In this document: positions 1,028-12,649 of the stretch, piece by piece
Layout: the number at the start of each line of letters is the position of its first letter
Numbering within the stretch: the first letter of the stretch is position 1
From: Planctomycetales bacterium 71-10
GTDB lineage: Bacteria; Planctomycetota; Planctomycetia; Isosphaerales; Isosphaeraceae
Assembly: GCA_001898385.1 (NCBI GenBank)
Contig: MKTT01000036.1
Span: forward strand, 180,907 to 244,906
Length of the DNA stretch: 64,000 bases
Reading direction: 5' to 3'
Made by a program: the position numbers and the translations under genes
The notes under the pieces: model-generated
What the model saw: only the letters and a program-made list of their open reading frames with translations
Databases searched by the model: none
Told to the model about the DNA's origin: nothing

Positions 1028-2599
1028 ATGACGATCGCGATCCGGCCCCGCGCCCTGGCCTTCGGCCTCATCGCGTCCGCGGTGGCCCTCCTCGGCCTCC
1101 ATGCGGACGCCGTCGCCCAGGATCCCGCGGCCGAAGGCCAGGCCCCCGATGGTGCGATCCTGGATCCCGGGCAGGACCCGGGGATGATGGAAGGCGAAGG
1201 CGAGCCCGACGCCCCCCGTCGCAACCGCGCCCGGACCCGGAGCCGCCCGGCGACGAAGAAGGCCGCCCCCCGCCCGAAGGCCGAGGCCACCGAGAAACCC
1301 GCGGCGAAGGCCGAAGACGCCCCGGCCGCCGCCAGCCCCGGCGAGCCCTCGTTCGCCCGCGACGTCGCCCCGATCCTGGTCGCCAACTGCGTGGACTGCC
1401 ACAGCCCCGGCCGCCCGGGCGTCAACCGCGGCAAGCTGGACATGGGGTCGTTCGACAAGCTGGCGAAGGGGGGACCGAGCGGCGCCGGGGCCGTGGCCGG
1501 CAAGCCCGACGAGAGCCACCTCCTCCTCCGCGTCAACGGGGAGGAGGAGCCCAAGATGCCCCCCAACAACGACGCCAGCCTCGGGGCCGCGGCCGTCGCC
1601 GCCATCGAGGGCTGGATCAAGGCCGGCGCGAAGCTGGACGCGGGCCTGGATCCCAAGGCCCCCCTCAAGAGCTACGCCGCCTCGCTCCAGGACGTCGCGC
1701 GGGCGAAGCTGGCCAAGCTGACGCCGGAGGAGCGCGACGCCAAGGTGAAGGAGGCCGGCCTCGACCGCTGGAAGAAGGCGAACCCGGACCTCAAGCCCGA
1801 GATGGAGACCACCGAGCACTTCGCCCTCTTCAGCACGCTCCCGAAGGACCGGGCGACCACGGCCCTGAAGGCGATGGAGTCCCACCTCCCCGCGATCCGC
1901 CGCGTGCTGGGGGCCGACGCGACCGAGTGGCCGGAGAAGGTCAGCTTCTACGCCTTCCCCGACCGCAAGGACTACGTCGAGTTCCAGCGGACGGTCAAGC
2001 AACGGGAGGTGACGGAGGACGAGGAAGGGGACGCCGACCTGAAGGCCGCGCAGCCTTACGTCGCGGTCGTCGCCCCGCCCGACGCCGCCTCGGAAGCCTC
2101 GGCCGCCCCGCCCCGGCGGAGGTCCCGCGGGCGTCGCGACGCCGAGCCGTTGGACTCCTCCTCCCGGACCCTCCCCGGGCTGCTGACCGAGCACCTCGGC
2201 CGCGGCGCGGTGCTGGCCTCCGGGAAGTCGCCCCGGTGGCTGGCCGAGGGCCTGGGCGCCTACCTCGCCAGCGGCGTCGAGCGCCGGGGGGGCCCGTACC
2301 AGAAGCTCCGCCGCGACGCCCTCGCCGCCTTCGAACGCGGCTGGACCACCAAGGCGGCCGACGTCCTGGGGGGCGGCGAGGGGGTCTCGCCCGAGGAGTT
2401 CCGCGGCGTCAGCTTCGCCCTGGTGGAGTGCCTGGCCTCGCCCAAGTATCGCGGCCTCTTCCCCGCATTCTTGAAGGGGATGCGCGAGGGGGGCGAGAAG
2501 CTCGACGACGTCGTCAAGGACGTCTACGGGGCCGACCGCGAGACCTTCCTCACCGAGACCGGCGAGTGGATCGCCGCGGCCTACGGCGGCGAGAACTGA
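1028..2599 (+). CDS. Secreted planctomycete-type cytochrome-c-domain protein with DUF1570-like C-terminal region
   Basis: Signal-like N-terminus MTIAIRPRALAFGLIASAVALLGLHA; haem motif VANCVDCHSPG (CxxCH); internal ATG at 1028 of ORF 638..2599. Confidence 0.75.
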   Translation: MTIAIRPRALAFGLIASAVALLGLHADAVAQDPAAEGQAPDGAILDPGQDPGMMEGEGEPDAPRRNRARTRSRPATKKAAPRPKAEATEKPAAKAEDAPAAASPGEPSFARDVAPILVANCVDCHSPGRPGVNRGKLDMGSFDKLAKGGPSGAGAVAGKPDESHLLLRVNGEEEPKMPPNNDASLGAAAVAAIEGWIKAGAKLDAGLDPKAPLKSYAASLQDVARAKLAKLTPEERDAKVKEAGLDRWKKANPDLKPEMETTEHFALFSTLPKDRATTALKAMESHLPAIRRVLGADATEWPEKVSFYAFPDRKDYVEFQRTVKQREVTEDEEGDADLKAAQPYVAVVAPPDAASEASAAPPRRRSRGRRDAEPLDSSSRTLPGLLTEHLGRGAVLASGKSPRWLAEGLGAYLASGVERRGGPYQKLRRDALAAFERGWTTKAADVLGGGEGVSPEEFRGVSFALVECLASPKYRGLFPAFLKGMREGGEKLDDVVKDVYGADRETFLTETGEWIAAAYGGEN

Positions 2600-2610
2600 A
2601 TCGGGGCGAT

Positions 2611-2643
2611 CGGCCCGGCCCCGCGCGGACGGGGGCCGGGCCG
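2611..2643. terminator. GC-rich hairpin between convergent genes (possible bidirectional terminator)
   Basis: Perfect 12-bp stem cggcccggcccc / ggggccgggccg with 9-nt loop; no clear U-tract. Confidence 0.45.
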
Positions 2644-2648
2644 GGGCC

Positions 2649-5797
<3,149 letters not shown>

Positions 5798-6284: not shown

Positions 6285-8149
6285 GCCTGCTGGTGATCGG
6301 CTGCGGATACCTGGGCGAGCGGGTCGCCCGCGAGTACGTCCGCCGCGGGGTCCCCGTCTTCGCCGTGACCCGATCGGCCGGGCGCGCCCCGGCGCTGGAG
6401 GCGATCGGCGTCCGGCCGGTGATCGGCGACGTGCTCGACTCCTCGCTCGGACTCCCGGCCGTCGACCGCGTCCTCTACGCCGTGGGCTTCGACCGATCCG
6501 CCGGCCCGTCCAAGCGCTCGGTCTACGTCGACGGCCTGCGGAACGTGCTCGACCGCCTGCCGCCGGGCGTGGAGCGGCTGGTCTACATCGGGTCGACGAG
6601 CGTCTACGGCAACGACGACGGCGGCTGGGTCGACGAGGGGACCCCCGCCGAGCCGATCACCGACGCCGGCCGCATCTGCCTGGACGCCGAGCGCGTGCTG
6701 ACCGCCTGGGCCGATCGCTCGGGCGTGTCGACGGTGATCCTGCGCTGCTCCGGCCTGTACGGGCCCGGCCGGATCATCCGCCGCGACCTGATCGCGAAGG
6801 GCGAGCCGATCCCGGGCGATCCCGACCGCCACCTGAGCCTGATCCACGTCGACGACGCGGCCCGCGCCGCGGCCGTGGCGCTGGACGCCGACGCCCCCGG
6901 GCCGCTGTATCTGGCCAGCGACGACCGGCCGATCCCTCGGCGCGAATACTACCGGGTCGTCGCCGCCGCTCTCGACGCCCCGCCGCCGACCTTCACGCCC
7001 CCCGCCCCCGGCTCGCCCGAGGCCGCCCGGGACGCGGTCGACCGTAAGGTGTGCAACCGCCGGATGAAGGCCGAGCTGGAGGTAGAGCTGCGACACCCGG
7101 ACATCGCGACGGGCGTCCCGGCGGCGCTGCATCCCCCCGGCGAGGCCGCGCGACGCCACATCGATCGGCTGGCCAAGCCCCCCGGCAGCCTGGGCCGGCT
7201 CGAAGACCTGGCCGCCCGGCTCTGCACCATCCAGGGGACCCTCTCTCCCCGGACCCGCCCGCGGCGGCTGGTCGTCTTCGCCGCCGACCACGGCGTCGTC
7301 GCCGCGGGGGTGACGGCGTGGCCCTCGGCCGTGACCGGGGCGATGATCCGGTCGATCGCCCGCGGCGGCGCGGCCTGCACGGCGATCGCCTCGGCGTGCG
7401 ACGCCGAGGTCGTGCTCGTGGACGTCGGCTCGACGTCCGAGCCGCTCGCGCCGCGGCCGGGCTACGAGGCCCGCAAGATCGCCGCGGGGACGAGGGACCT
7501 GTCCGTCGGCCCGGCGATGGGCGTCGAGGAGTTCGGACGGGCGATGGCCGTCGGTGCCGAGCACGCCCGGCGAGCCTTCGAGGACGGCATGGCGGTCGTC
7601 GCGGCGGGGGAGTTGGGGATCGGCAACACGACGCCGGCGTCCTGCCTGGCGGCGCTCCTGGCCGGCGTGCCCCCGAACCTCGCCGTCGGCCGCGGCGCGG
7701 GGGCCGACGACGCGACGCTGGAACGCAAGCTCCGGGTCGTCGAGTCGGCGACGGCGCGGGCGCGGGGCCGGCTCGACCGCGAGCCGATCGCGGCGATCGC
7801 CGAGGTCGCCGGCTTCGAGATCGCCGCGATGGCCGGATTCAACCTGGAGGCGGCCCGACTCGGCCTGACGATCGTGCTGGACGGCGTCATCGCCACGGCC
7901 GCCGCCCTGATCGCCGAGAGGCTGCGGCCCGGGACGGCGGACTCCATGATCGCCGCCCACCTGTCCGACGAGCCGGCCCACCGGCCGATGCTGACGCGGC
8001 TGGGTCTGGAACCGTTGTTGAGCGACTGGCGGATGCGGCTGGGCGAGGGGACCGGGGCCCTGCTGGCCTTCCCGCTCCTCGACGCCGCCGCGGCGATGGC
8101 CTCGCGGATGGACGCGCTGGACGTCGCGCTTGCGGAGCCCGAATCGTGA
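6281..8149 (+). CDS. cobT: In-frame fusion: SDR/NAD-dependent epimerase (N-term) with nicotinate-nucleotide-dimethylbenzimidazole phosphoribosyltransferase CobT (C-term)
   Basis: MSLLVIGCGYLGERVAREYVRRGVPVFAVTRS...YIGSTSVYGNDDGGWVDE then, with no stop, RHIDRLAKPPGSLGRLEDLAARLCTIQG...VVFAADHGVVAAGV...ELGIGNTTPASCLAALL (CobT signatures). Confidence 0.85.
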   Translation: MSLLVIGCGYLGERVAREYVRRGVPVFAVTRSAGRAPALEAIGVRPVIGDVLDSSLGLPAVDRVLYAVGFDRSAGPSKRSVYVDGLRNVLDRLPPGVERLVYIGSTSVYGNDDGGWVDEGTPAEPITDAGRICLDAERVLTAWADRSGVSTVILRCSGLYGPGRIIRRDLIAKGEPIPGDPDRHLSLIHVDDAARAAAVALDADAPGPLYLASDDRPIPRREYYRVVAAALDAPPPTFTPPAPGSPEAARDAVDRKVCNRRMKAELEVELRHPDIATGVPAALHPPGEAARRHIDRLAKPPGSLGRLEDLAARLCTIQGTLSPRTRPRRLVVFAADHGVVAAGVTAWPSAVTGAMIRSIARGGAACTAIASACDAEVVLVDVGSTSEPLAPRPGYEARKIAAGTRDLSVGPAMGVEEFGRAMAVGAEHARRAFEDGMAVVAAGELGIGNTTPASCLAALLAGVPPNLAVGRGAGADDATLERKLRVVESATARARGRLDREPIAAIAEVAGFEIAAMAGFNLEAARLGLTIVLDGVIATAAALIAERLRPGTADSMIAAHLSDEPAHRPMLTRLGLEPLLSDWRMRLGEGTGALLAFPLLDAAAAMASRMDALDVALAEPES

Positions 8150-8928
8150 GCCTCGCGGACCACGCCCGCGGCCTGATCCTGGCGGTGCAGTTCCTCACCC
8201 GGATCCCTACGCCCCAGTTCGACCTGAGCGACGAGGCCGAGCGGCACGAAGCCCTCGGCCGGGCCACGGCCTACTTCCCCCTCGTCGGCGCGATGGTCGG
8301 CCTGGCGACCGGGGCGGTGATCCTGGCGTGCTCGCGGATCTGGCCGCCGTGGCTCGCGGTGGCGATCGGCCTGGCGTTCGAGGCCCGCCTCACCGGCGCG
8401 TTCCACGAGGACGCCGTCGCCGACTTCTGCGACGCCTTCGGCGGCGGCTGGACCCGCGACGACGTCCTGCGGATCCTCAAGGATAGTCGGCTCGGGTCGT
8501 ACGGCACGCTGGGGCTGGTCCTGGCGGTGGCGTTGCGTGGCGGGGCGCTGGCGGCGATCGAGCCCGGCCTCTTGCTCGCCGCGACGACGGCCTCCGCGTG
8601 CCTGGGGCGCTGGACCGCCCTTCCGACGATGTGGGCCCTCCCCCCGCTGGCCGATCGCCAGAGCCTCAGCCGAGACGTCGGCCGGAAGCCCAGCCTCCGC
8701 CGCGTCGCCTTCGGGACGCTGCTGGCGATGCCGGGCTGTGCGGCGTTCGCGATCGCCGAGCCGGCTCGGATGGCCGCGGGCCTGGCGGCGACGCTCGTCG
8801 TGGGGGCGTGGGTCGTCCGCTACGTCGGCCGACGGCTGGGCGGGATCAACGGCGACAGCCTCGGCTTCCTCTGCTACGCGACGCAGATCGTCGTCCCGCT
8901 CGCGGCGTGCGCCTCGTGGCGGCCGTGA
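8146..8928 (+). CDS. cobS: Adenosylcobinamide-GDP ribazoletransferase
   Basis: GTG start overlapping cobT stop (GTGA); VSLADHARGLILAVQFLTRIPTPQ...GAFHEDAVADFCDAFGGGWTRDDVLRILKDSRLGSYG typical of CobS. Confidence 0.92.
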   Translation: MSLADHARGLILAVQFLTRIPTPQFDLSDEAERHEALGRATAYFPLVGAMVGLATGAVILACSRIWPPWLAVAIGLAFEARLTGAFHEDAVADFCDAFGGGWTRDDVLRILKDSRLGSYGTLGLVLAVALRGGALAAIEPGLLLAATTASACLGRWTALPTMWALPPLADRQSLSRDVGRKPSLRRVAFGTLLAMPGCAAFAIAEPARMAAGLAATLVVGAWVVRYVGRRLGGINGDSLGFLCYATQIVVPLAACASWRP

Positions 8929-9455
8929 CCTTCGTCCGCCATCCTCGCGTCGCCGACGCCTACCGCGGCGTCTGCTACGGCCGCGCCGACGTCCCGCTCG
9001 GGCCGGAGGGGATCGCGGAGAGCCTGGCGATCGCCGAGCGACTGGCCCGCGAGCCATTCCGCCGCGTCGTTTGCAGCGGCGCGGCCCGGACGCTGGCCCT
9101 CGCCCGTCGCGTCTGCGAGCTGACGGGCCTGGGCCTCGCGATCGAGCCGGCGTTGCTGGAGCGCGACTTCGGCGCCTGGGAGTTGCGGACCTGGGACGAC
9201 ATCCACGCCGAGGTCGGCGACGCGATGAACGGCCTGATCGACGCCCCCGAGGCCTATCGCCCCCCCGGCGGCGAGACCACGCACCAGCTTCGCGACCGGG
9301 CGATGGGATGGTACGAGCGACGGCCGACCGACGGCCCCGTGCTCGTCGTCGCCCACGGCGGTCCGATCGCCGCGATCCGAGGCACGCTGGCCGGAAGATC
9401 GGCGCGCGAGTGGCTCGACCTGATCCCCCCGCCGGGCGGGGTCGTCTCCCTGTGA
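8907..9455 (+). CDS. Histidine phosphatase family protein (CobC/alpha-ribazole phosphatase-like)
   Basis: VTFVRHPRVADAYRGVCYGRADVPL...VVCSGAARTLALAR...LLERDFGAWE...VLVVAHGGPIAAIRG; start uncertain (GTG at 8907, 8916 or 8925). Confidence 0.8.
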   Translation: MRLVAAVTFVRHPRVADAYRGVCYGRADVPLGPEGIAESLAIAERLAREPFRRVVCSGAARTLALARRVCELTGLGLAIEPALLERDFGAWELRTWDDIHAEVGDAMNGLIDAPEAYRPPGGETTHQLRDRAMGWYERRPTDGPVLVVAHGGPIAAIRGTLAGRSAREWLDLIPPPGGVVSL

Positions 9456-9473
9456 AGCCGCACCGATCGCCGG

Positions 9474-10400
9474 TCAGGGTCTCTTCGCCGCGACCATCTC
9501 CCGGAACTGCTTCCAGGTGATGACCTCGATCCCGAGCTTCCGGATCTCGGCGGCGGTGGCGGGATCGGTGAAGATGCGACGGTCGCCGTCGCGGCGGGCG
9601 TGGCTGGTGGTGACGGCCTGGAGTTCCTCGCCGTCGACGCCGCAGTGGATGATGAGCTGGGTCACGCCCGGCGGCAGCCCGCGCAGGGCCTTCATGTAGG
9701 TCGCCAGCCGCTCCTCGTGCGAGTCGCCGCCGTAGAACTGGAGCAGGTTGTCCAGAACCGGCAGCTTCTTCGCGTCGAGCTGGGCGAGCAGATCCTTGCC
9801 CCGCTGGCGGATGGCGGGGTACTCCTCGCCGATCGCGCCGTCGACGTCGCGCAGGAACAGGACGGGGAGGTCGTACTTGATCCCGACGCGGACGTAGGCG
9901 TCGAGGATGTCGGGCCGGACGACCAGCGCGCCCATGTGGGTGTCCAGGTGGCTGAGGGGGATGCCCAGCTCGCGGGCCCGCTCGACCTGGGCGATCAGCT
10001 CGATCTCGACCTCCTCGGCCTTCGCCCCCTTCGCCACGGCGTCGACGCCGCGGGGGAGGTAGCCGTCCTGATCCACCAGGCTCGGCACCTTGTCGCGGCC
10101 GGCGACCGGGCCCCAGCGGTAGACCTGCCACTCGGAGTTGAGCGTCAGGTGGACGCCGTAGTCCTTCTCCGGGTGGGCCTTCGCGTACTCGGCGAACTCC
10201 TTCACCCACGGACAGGGGATCATGATGCTGCACGACGAGACCGACCCCTCCTCCATCGCCTCGATCGTCCCCCGGTTGGCCGAATGGCACATCCCGGCGT
10301 CGTCCGCGTGGATGATGAGGTAGCGCTTCCCGTCCTCCGCGGCGGCGACGGTGGACAGGAGCATCAGGACCAGGGCCGAGGTCGTACGAACGCGCGACAT
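9474..10400 (-). CDS. Secreted ChbG/HpnK (YdjC-like) family deacetylase
   Basis: Signal peptide then [67 protein letters not shown], characteristic YdjC-type motif. Confidence 0.85.
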
Positions 10401-10604
10401 CGCGGGTCTCCGACGGGAATGCGAACAGAATGGGATGAGCCCAGCCTGCCGCGCCAGAGCCGCCAGTGCAAGCAGAGGGCGGCATCATCCGAATCGGCGT
10501 CCCCCTGGCATGCGCAGGGCGTGGAGAGTCGGGGCGATGTTAAGATAACCTCAACGACCCGGTGGATTCGGAGGTTCTCGCCAGACCTTTCACCAGGAGC
10601 GTGC

Positions 10605-11780
10605 ATGACCTCTCTTTCGAAACCGACGGAAGACGCGAGAGGGCCGGATCGCGCCATGATCACCCGCATCTATGTCAACAATTACAGATGCTTTGAAAAT
10701 CTCGCGGTCGACCTCGCCGACTTCCGTTCGGCGCTGCTCATCGGCAAGAACGGGTCGGGGAAATCGACCTTGAGACAAGCGTTCCGCGTCTTCCAGAAAA
10801 TCTGTCGCGGTCCGAACCGGGTCAAGGAGTGGATCAATGGGGGCGACTTCACTCGGTACCGGACGGAGCGCCCGATGCGATTCGAGCTGGACGCCGTCCT
10901 TGGCGGCAGGCGATATCGCTACGCCATCGTCTTCGAATCGTCCGACGACGCCGACTTCGGCCGGCCCGTGGAGGCCGGAGACATCCGCATCGCCGAGGAG
11001 TCGCTCATGGTTGATGGCGTCCCGGTCTTCACCCGTCGGCATTCGCAGGTGGACCTGCCCGGAGGTGCGACGTTCGGGCTGGATTGGCACGTCGCCGCGC
11101 TGCCGGTGATCCAGGATCGCAAATTCAAGGGCGAGTTGCAGACGTTCAAGACGTATTGCGCCTCAATGATCCTGATCGCGCCCGTCCCTCAGCGTATGAC
11201 CGGGCTCTCCGAGGGGGAGACGTTCGAACTCCAAGAGGATGCGGGGAACATCGCGGCCTGGTTGATCTCCCTTCTAAGGCGTAAGCCCGAAGCCTACACC
11301 TTGATTCACAACTACCTCAAGGAAGTCATGCCGGACTTCCACTCTTTCGAGAACGTGCCGAAAGGCGAGCGTCGCGACGACCTCACGCTCACGTTCCAAA
11401 CATCGAAGTTCCCCGAATGGTTCACGGTGATGTTCGACAGGCTCTCCGACGGCGAGAAGTGCTTCTTCCTCAGCGCCGCCATCGTGGCCGCGAATCAGGT
11501 CGCGGGGCCTGTCTTCTGCTTCTGGGACGAGCCGGACAACCATCTCTCGCTCGACGAGGTCGGCCATTTCATTGTCCGACTTCGCAAGCTCGTCAACAGC
11601 CAGGGCCAGTTCATCGCGACCTCCCACCATCCCGAGACGATCCGGAAGTTCTCGGACGAGACCACGCTCGTCTTCCAGAGGGCGTCCCATCTCGAACCGA
11701 CGGTCGTCCGCCCGCTCTCGGAGATCGGTTACGACGGCGACCTCATCCTGTCGCTCCTCCTGGGCGAGGTCGTCGAATGA
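10605..11780 (+). CDS. AAA family ATPase (AAA_15/AAA_21, OLD/RecF-like), putative defence-like module component A
   Basis: MITRIYVNNYRCFENLAVDLADFRSALLIGKNGSGKSTL (Walker A), LSDGEKCFFLSAAIVAANQ (signature), GPVFCFWDEPDNHLS (Walker B), ATSHHPETI (switch His); AGGAG upstream of ATG 10605. Confidence 0.9.
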   Translation: MTSLSKPTEDARGPDRAMITRIYVNNYRCFENLAVDLADFRSALLIGKNGSGKSTLRQAFRVFQKICRGPNRVKEWINGGDFTRYRTERPMRFELDAVLGGRRYRYAIVFESSDDADFGRPVEAGDIRIAEESLMVDGVPVFTRRHSQVDLPGGATFGLDWHVAALPVIQDRKFKGELQTFKTYCASMILIAPVPQRMTGLSEGETFELQEDAGNIAAWLISLLRRKPEAYTLIHNYLKEVMPDFHSFENVPKGERRDDLTLTFQTSKFPEWFTVMFDRLSDGEKCFFLSAAIVAANQVAGPVFCFWDEPDNHLSLDEVGHFIVRLRKLVNSQGQFIATSHHPETIRKFSDETTLVFQRASHLEPTVVRPLSEIGYDGDLILSLLLGEVVE

Positions 11781-12262
11781 ACAACAGGCACAAGCCTCAC
11801 GTCATCGTCGTCCCGGAAGACGACGCGAATCGCCAGTTGGCCGACGGCTTCGTCCGCCACGACGCCGTCGTCTCCGGGTCGATCCAGGTCGTCCCGCCCG
11901 CAGGCGGCTGGACCGCCGTCCTCGCGAGCTTGCAAAATCAGTACGTCGCACGCCTTCGTAAGTATCCAAAGGGCCATGTGGTCTTGCTCATCGATTTCGA
12001 CCGTCAGGCCGATCGCAGGGCGTTGTTCGACCACGAGATCCCCGACCCCCTTAAGGGCCAGGTCTTCGTCATCGGGTCGTGGGACGAACCTGAAGAGGTG
12101 AGGCGCACCACGGGCCGGACCCTGGACGGGATCGGCTTCCAACTCGCCGACGAGTGTTTCCGGGGAGGCTCCGCGCTGTGGGACTCGCAGCACTTCGGTC
12201 ACAATGCCGAGGAGCGGGCGAGACTCTCGTCGGCCGTGGATTCCTTCCTGTTCAGGCGTTGA
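11777..12262 (+). CDS. Small acidic-motif protein, TOPRIM-like by pattern, partner of upstream ATPase
   Basis: ATGA overlap with the ATPase stop; 161 aa MNNRHKPHVIVVPEDDANRQLADGF...GHVVLLIDFDRQADRR...VFVIGSWDEPEEVRR; E...DxD arrangement resembles TOPRIM. Confidence 0.75.
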   Translation: MNNRHKPHVIVVPEDDANRQLADGFVRHDAVVSGSIQVVPPAGGWTAVLASLQNQYVARLRKYPKGHVVLLIDFDRQADRRALFDHEIPDPLKGQVFVIGSWDEPEEVRRTTGRTLDGIGFQLADECFRGGSALWDSQHFGHNAEERARLSSAVDSFLFRR

Positions 12263-12286
12263 CAGGTGGTTCGCGCCCGTCGCGCC

Positions 12287-12649
12287 TCACCCCTCCGCCG
12301 GCTCGATGTAGCAGCGGAGGGGGCCCTTCGATTCCTTCATGCGGGGGTCGGCGCCGTAGGAGACGACCTGCTCGCGCTTGAGCTCGGCCTTCTCCTTGTG
12401 GGTGGTGTAGACCACGGCCCGGCCGCTGTTGTGGATCGCCCAGGTGAGGGCCTCGGCCGTGCGCAGGGGATGGGCGAAGAGCTTGGTCAGCAGCTCGATG
12501 ACGTACTGGAACGTGTGCTCCTCGTCGTTGAGGATGATCACGTTGTAGGGGGGGAGCTTCTTCGTCCGGGTCTGCTGCTCCTCCTCGACCGCCACGGCGA
12601 CCGAGGTCTCCGGCTCGTCGACGGGGGCCGATCCCTGCTCGTCCGACAT
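12287..12649 (-). CDS. clpS: ATP-dependent Clp protease adaptor ClpS-like protein
   Basis: KLPPYNVIILNDEEHTFQYVIELLTKLFAHPLRTAEALTWAIHNSGRAVVYTTHKEKAELKREQV, ClpS core with substitutions. Confidence 0.85.
   Translation of the reverse strand: MSDEQGSAPVDEPETSVAVAVEEEQQTRTKKLPPYNVIILNDEEHTFQYVIELLTKLFAHPLRTAEALTWAIHNSGRAVVYTTHKEKAELKREQVVSYGADPRMKESKGPLRCYIEPAEG

Follow-up and report, generated by a model that had tools for sequence, protein, structure and literature searches.

The window analyzed here, a 64,000-nucleotide stretch of contig MKTT01000036.1 from Planctomycetales bacterium 71-10, carries two overlapping genes, one for an ABC-type ATPase and the other for a small protein of TOPRIM-like build, which evolve and move together and probably constitute a horizontally mobile two-gene conflict module, with an ATPase sensor restraining a TOPRIM nuclease effector in the manner of AbiL and PARIS but with a different effector family. 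The overlapping arrangement is far beyond chance, since it recurs at about 80 loci. Bacterial immunity draws repeatedly on pairs of an ATPase and a TOPRIM protein, and triggers and targets are known for few of them. A compact family of about 1.6 kb that occurs in nine or more phyla would make it easy to study the restraint and release of a nuclease by an ATPase, and its small effector can help to decide between tRNA, the substrate of AriB, and DNA as the target of such TOPRIMs.

The first open reading frame (10605 to 11780, plus strand) encodes 391 aa if read from the ATG at 10605, rather than the 392 aa given in the initial annotation, and the second (11777 to 12262, plus strand) encodes 161 aa; both lie at the positions first reported for them, as does their ATGA stop/start overlap on the plus strand at 11777 to 11780. 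The same 4-nt overlap is found in 65 of the 78 loci with a measurable junction, which suggests that translation of the ATPase and small genes may be coupled. The pair is located, as first described, between a ChbG-like deacetylase gene (9474 to 10400, minus strand) and clpS (12287 to 12649, minus strand). An early impression of lower GC content and weaker codon bias is borne out by the numbers: GC content is 62.0% in the module and averages 71.6% over the window, of which the module is the lowest 1.6-kb stretch (0.3% of 1.6-kb segments are as low), and GC3 of its two genes is 0.83-0.84 against 0.96-0.98 in the neighboring genes. The motifs originally read from the two proteins (GKNGSGKST, LSDGEKC, CFWDEP, TSHH, VVPEDDANRQLADGF and LLIDFDRQ) are all present in the sequence.

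The ATPase gene reads as intact. Translation probably starts at the second ATG, at 10656 (MITRIYVNNYR), and not at 10605, because homologues begin M-x-x-R-x-Y-V-x-N; the protein would then be 374 aa, encoded by 10656 to 11780 on the plus strand. Along the same strand lie the Walker A motif GKNGSGKST (10743 to 10769; G30, N32, G35 and K36), the ABC signature LSDGEKC (11442 to 11462; L263, S264, G266, E267 and K268), the Walker B motif CFWDEP (11517 to 11534; W290, D291, E292 and P293) and the switch histidine H324 of TSHH (11625 to 11627), and every residue named here is invariant in 61 homologues. Pfam scores are 61.9 bits for AAA_21 (cut-off 27) and 56.7 bits for AAA_15 (cut-off 32.1), and the best PADLOC models are AbiLi, HEC-01A, MAD3 and AriA. 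AbiLi is the top PADLOC model for the window ATPase (E 2e-22), and AbiLi and MAD3, the nearest models, match all 61 homologues; no curated cut-off is given for AbiLi, and the match is a family-level resemblance. The AlphaFold2 model of the ATPase (pLDDT 93, pTM 0.92) has as its nearest solved folds PtuA of Septu and retrons, and Rad50 heads.

The 161-aa protein (11777 to 12262, plus strand) is a candidate nuclease effector belonging to no curated family, and its AlphaFold2 model (pLDDT 95.0, pTM 0.90), for which one plasmid-derived row was left out of the input alignment, has strands at residues 8-13, 36-38, 66-73 and 96-101 alternating with helices in the order strand-helix-strand-helix-strand-helix-strand. 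The TOPRIM layout places a glutamate after strand 1 and a DxD motif where strand 3 ends; the small-protein model has the TOPRIM strand order and both of these motifs. The candidate motif-1 glutamate is E14, directly after strand 1 (11816 to 11818, plus strand), instead of the E30 originally proposed, and is a glutamate in 78 of 79 sequences; the candidate DxD is D73-F74-D75 (11993 to 12001, plus strand), with D73 and D75 present in all 79. Because the pattern used in the genome scan required H8-x-V-x-P13-[EG]-D-[DE]-A17-like residues, conservation from H8 to A17 is partly by construction. That pattern allowed E or G at the position of E14, while D73 and D75 lay outside it, and the conservation independent of it is that of D73, D75, R80, C127, W135 and N143.

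Foldseek comparison of the small-protein model with the PDB gave high-probability matches that include Ts OLD nuclease (0.89) and topoisomerase I (0.77), and comparison with BFVD gave primase-helicases (0.97, and 0.96 for an unnamed protein), RloB-like proteins (0.84) and DnaG (0.82), all with E > 1e-3. No Foldseek match of the model, TOPRIM or other, fell below E 1e-3; the best E-value belonged to a PTS EIIA domain, and GTPase-like folds were also among the matches. On the predicted structure, the TOPRIM call is strong but not final, because of those PTS EIIA and GTPase-like matches. The PTS EIIA match would suit a Rossmann-like, non-TOPRIM protein, such as a regulator or a phosphotransfer-like domain, in a pair with an unrelated function, the more so as the TOPRIM matches all lie above E 1e-3. 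Such an identity appears quite improbable when set against the TOPRIM strand order and the acidic residues in their canonical places, a profile match to DUF4276, and the small protein of a related module in another genome of the order (G020), whose motifs 1 and 2 are in register with this family and which can be aligned to the profiles of DUF4276 and RloB as well. The TOPRIM-like reading in the initial annotation agrees with the topology and the placement of the acidic residues, and a structure prediction with no TOPRIM or nuclease fold, named there as grounds for abandoning it, did not appear: AlphaFold2 gives a TOPRIM-like topology.

Searches of the small protein against Pfam, PADLOC, NCBIfam and the PDB returned no relative. 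For DUF4276 in Pfam, only 1 of 74 members scores, at a nonsignificant E of 0.16. By hhalign, the small-protein family scored 30.7 against 22 DUF4276 proteins of the same order, compared with a maximum of 19.1 for 100 column-shuffled controls, and at the profile level the two families therefore seem to be remote homologs. The RloB and OLD-TOPRIM profiles did no better than shuffled controls in hhalign, and DUF4435 gave a probability of 0.2 from a thin two-sequence profile with no shuffled control. The ATPase-headed phage family phrog_3940 (537 positions) matches 8 of 74 small proteins, the best of them (E 0.0012) in its C-terminal part at positions 344-456, and its N-terminal part is matched by the ATPase, which weakly suggests that it may be a fused cousin of the two-gene pair. 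In the G020 module, the small protein has 191 aa and follows a related ATPase (28% identity), and its LVED and TDAD are the motifs in register with E14 and D73-x-D75. DUF4276 proteins are themselves common in the order, occurring in 26 of 45 genomes with up to six matches each; the source genome has five and the five congeners have none. The literature searched contained no mention of the family. On a phage-labelled contig (MT835995.1, about 2480-4300), an ABC ATPase (24% identity) is followed by what is by inspection a DUF4276 protein. The phage and viral sequence collections contained no copy of the small protein. Weak partial genome-search matches in G174, G222 and G296 were not counted; the G222 match falls within a long ORF that is unrelated.

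When about 85,000 species genomes were scanned with a profile as guide, 100 loci emerged, of which 80 were kept; the small-protein loci span nine phyla or more, Cyanobacteriota and Planctomycetota among them. Within the order, the small protein is present in 5 of 45 genomes and missing from five congeners of the source genome. Among 82 loci examined for pairing, two (L011 and L047) end at a contig edge and were left out of the count, and an ATPase or its remnant lies directly upstream in all 80 with sequence there. The ATPase partner of the initial reading is thus constant at these loci, intact or as a remnant, and neither vertical inheritance nor the lack of an ATPase, which would have spoken against a transferable module, appeared among the homologues. 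Pairwise distances between ATPases and between small proteins are strongly correlated (Mantel r = 0.86 for 70 pairs; permutation maximum 0.29). The order has six strong ATPase homologues (at least 400 bits), each accompanied by the small gene or by what is left of it; they are those of the genomes with the small gene and that of G019, where it is a frameshifted remnant. Decay of one partner is seen in both directions: the small gene is lost and the ATPase kept in L190 and L213, and the ATPase is deleted beside an intact small gene in L020, L074 and L088.

These last loci bear on the idea that the two genes form an addiction pair, a TOPRIM toxin neutralized by the upstream ATPase and maintained by addiction and not by phage defense. 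A toxin-antitoxin role would account for the antitoxin-first gene order and the overlap, it has a precedent in the literature, where AAA ATPases are described as antitoxins to TOPRIM_OLD toxins (PMC10440598), and it is in keeping with the presence of the pair on cyanobacterial plasmids. However, an intact small gene beside a deleted ATPase argues mildly against a strong stand-alone toxin, albeit on draft or metagenome contigs where the protein may be inactive, and deletion of either gene leaves PARIS, a close analogue, non-toxic (PMC9122126). We consider addiction unlikely, though worth keeping in view, and favor the conflict module of sensor and effector.

The module is foreign to the source genome and mobile, as judged from its absence in five congeners, its low GC content, its patchy occurrence across phyla and its presence on a plasmid, and the initial annotation was right to call it transferable. 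It forms the low-GC right end of a 5.2-kb segment between an sdr-like gene and clpS (7129 to 12287), which also carries cobT, cobS, a phosphatase gene and chbG and has no counterpart at this place in the five congeners. All five retain clpS together with its right-hand neighbors, and a manC-ruvX-sdr block adjoins the clpS side in all three with a readable left side; the gap from the sdr-like gene to clpS is about 167 bp in the genome G028 and holds about 2-3 kb of other DNA in the genomes G029 and G030. The related ATPase and LVED/TDAD protein of G020 (contig C221, about 1120-3204) lie between ruvX and the sdr-like gene, adjoining the slot occupied in the window, and in G017 an ATPase alone is found at the ruvX/sdr-like position. 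The ruvX-sdr-clpS region has the appearance of a hot spot for insertions in the order. A cyanobacterial megaplasmid of Kovacikia carries a copy of the pair, and a conjugative plasmid of Dolichospermum carries the ATPase with a decayed small gene. On the small-protein tree, phylum labels need 20 changes where the least possible is 8, a count that would fit transfer between phyla without proving each event. In a gammaproteobacterial MAG, an ORF reading like an IS transposase (L069:5637-6785) lies 56 bp upstream of the module.

Beyond neighbors common to close relatives or generic families, no constant third gene was found beside the pair. The nearest neighbors are mostly housekeeping genes, encoding arginyl-tRNA synthetase, PNP oxidase, RsmB, penicillin-binding proteins and epimerases. 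Together with the closeness of the ATPase fold to Rad50 heads, such neighborhoods might be expected if the two genes served DNA maintenance or repair as RecF and RecR do, an ABC ATPase acting there with a TOPRIM protein that is not catalytic. This role seems to us very unlikely, as the retention of E14, D73 and D75 in 78-79 of 79 sequences suggests catalysis, and a patchy, mobile distribution with absence in congeners is unlike that of a repair gene. Strong defense matches among 117 nearest neighbors include SngC (2e-256), BrxHI (3e-138), a type IV REase (7e-87), HEC-01B (2e-73) and HsdS (3e-47), while 101 control ORFs taken from arbitrary regions of planctomycetes matched for the most part the kinase-like PD-T4-6, with mad6 and MkoA in addition, in a comparison tallied by family and not by member, with unmatched control genomes. 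A link to defense islands is suggestive only, and the association is weak: some strong defense neighbors exist, but most of the nearest neighbors are housekeeping genes.

How might a mobile ATPase-TOPRIM conflict module act? By analogy with PARIS, AbiL and the AAA-TOPRIM_OLD pairs (PMC9122126, PMC12409363, PMC10440598), the ATPase would dimerize or oligomerize as a sensor scaffold, bind the small protein and keep it inactive. A phage-infection cue would alter the nucleotide state or assembly of the ATPase, and the TOPRIM protein, released or activated, would cut nucleic acid (RNA or DNA) using metal held by E14, D73 and D75, leading to growth arrest or abortive infection. There is about an even chance that these loci represent a family of split ATPase-TOPRIM immune systems that spans phyla and has not been described before, with a 161-aa stand-alone metal-dependent nuclease outside DUF4435, RloB and OLD that is possibly among the smallest complete ATPase-TOPRIM effectors.

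The two-gene ATPase and TOPRIM architecture is already known (PMC9122126, PMC10440598). In PARIS, the ATPase AriA acts as the sensor, and tRNA is cut by AriB, a TOPRIM nuclease with two metals (PMC9122126, PMC12409363); the ATPase described here passes the AAA_15 and AAA_21 scores that define AriA and has an adjacent, separate TOPRIM-like gene, but the small protein does not match DUF4435 (PF14491), the defining feature of AriB. AbiL likewise has adjacent genes for an ABC ATPase (AbiLi) and a small TOPRIM-type effector (AbiLii, RloB-type), AbiLi is the best PADLOC model of our ATPase, and both occur on plasmids; by contrast, the small protein is only 161 aa, has no RloB match in Pfam and scores at the shuffled level against the RloB profile. 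Membership of PARIS or AbiL was rejected, the effector being neither DUF4435 nor RloB. The NetFlax AAA (D29) proteins with TOPRIM_OLD or RloB partners are also bicistronic, an AAA ATPase with a separate TOPRIM protein, and have been proposed to act in abortive infection or as toxin-antitoxin pairs (PMC10440598). Pairs of DUF4276 and an ATPase resemble the module in that the small proteins are remote homologs at the profile level and that, by inspection in MT835995, the architecture is the same, but the small protein here is shorter and its Pfam match is limited to that single nonsignificant member. Class 1 OLD, Gabija GajA and PtuA of retrons and Septu share the ABC ATPase head. Class 1 OLD carries ATPase and TOPRIM in one polypeptide, whereas in the window, and in those homologous loci that were examined, each is encoded by an ORF of its own and the two ORFs overlap. 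Our pair also lacks the UvrD-like helicase GajB of Gabija, the HNH nuclease PtuB of Septu and the reverse transcriptase of retrons. The small-protein family is in none of Pfam, PADLOC 2.0, NCBIfam 20 and the literature searched. The claim of an undescribed module consequently holds, within those libraries and papers, for the effector family and not for the two-gene design. Because the architecture has been published and the effector is absent from the libraries searched, the pair is best described as a known architecture with a new effector family.
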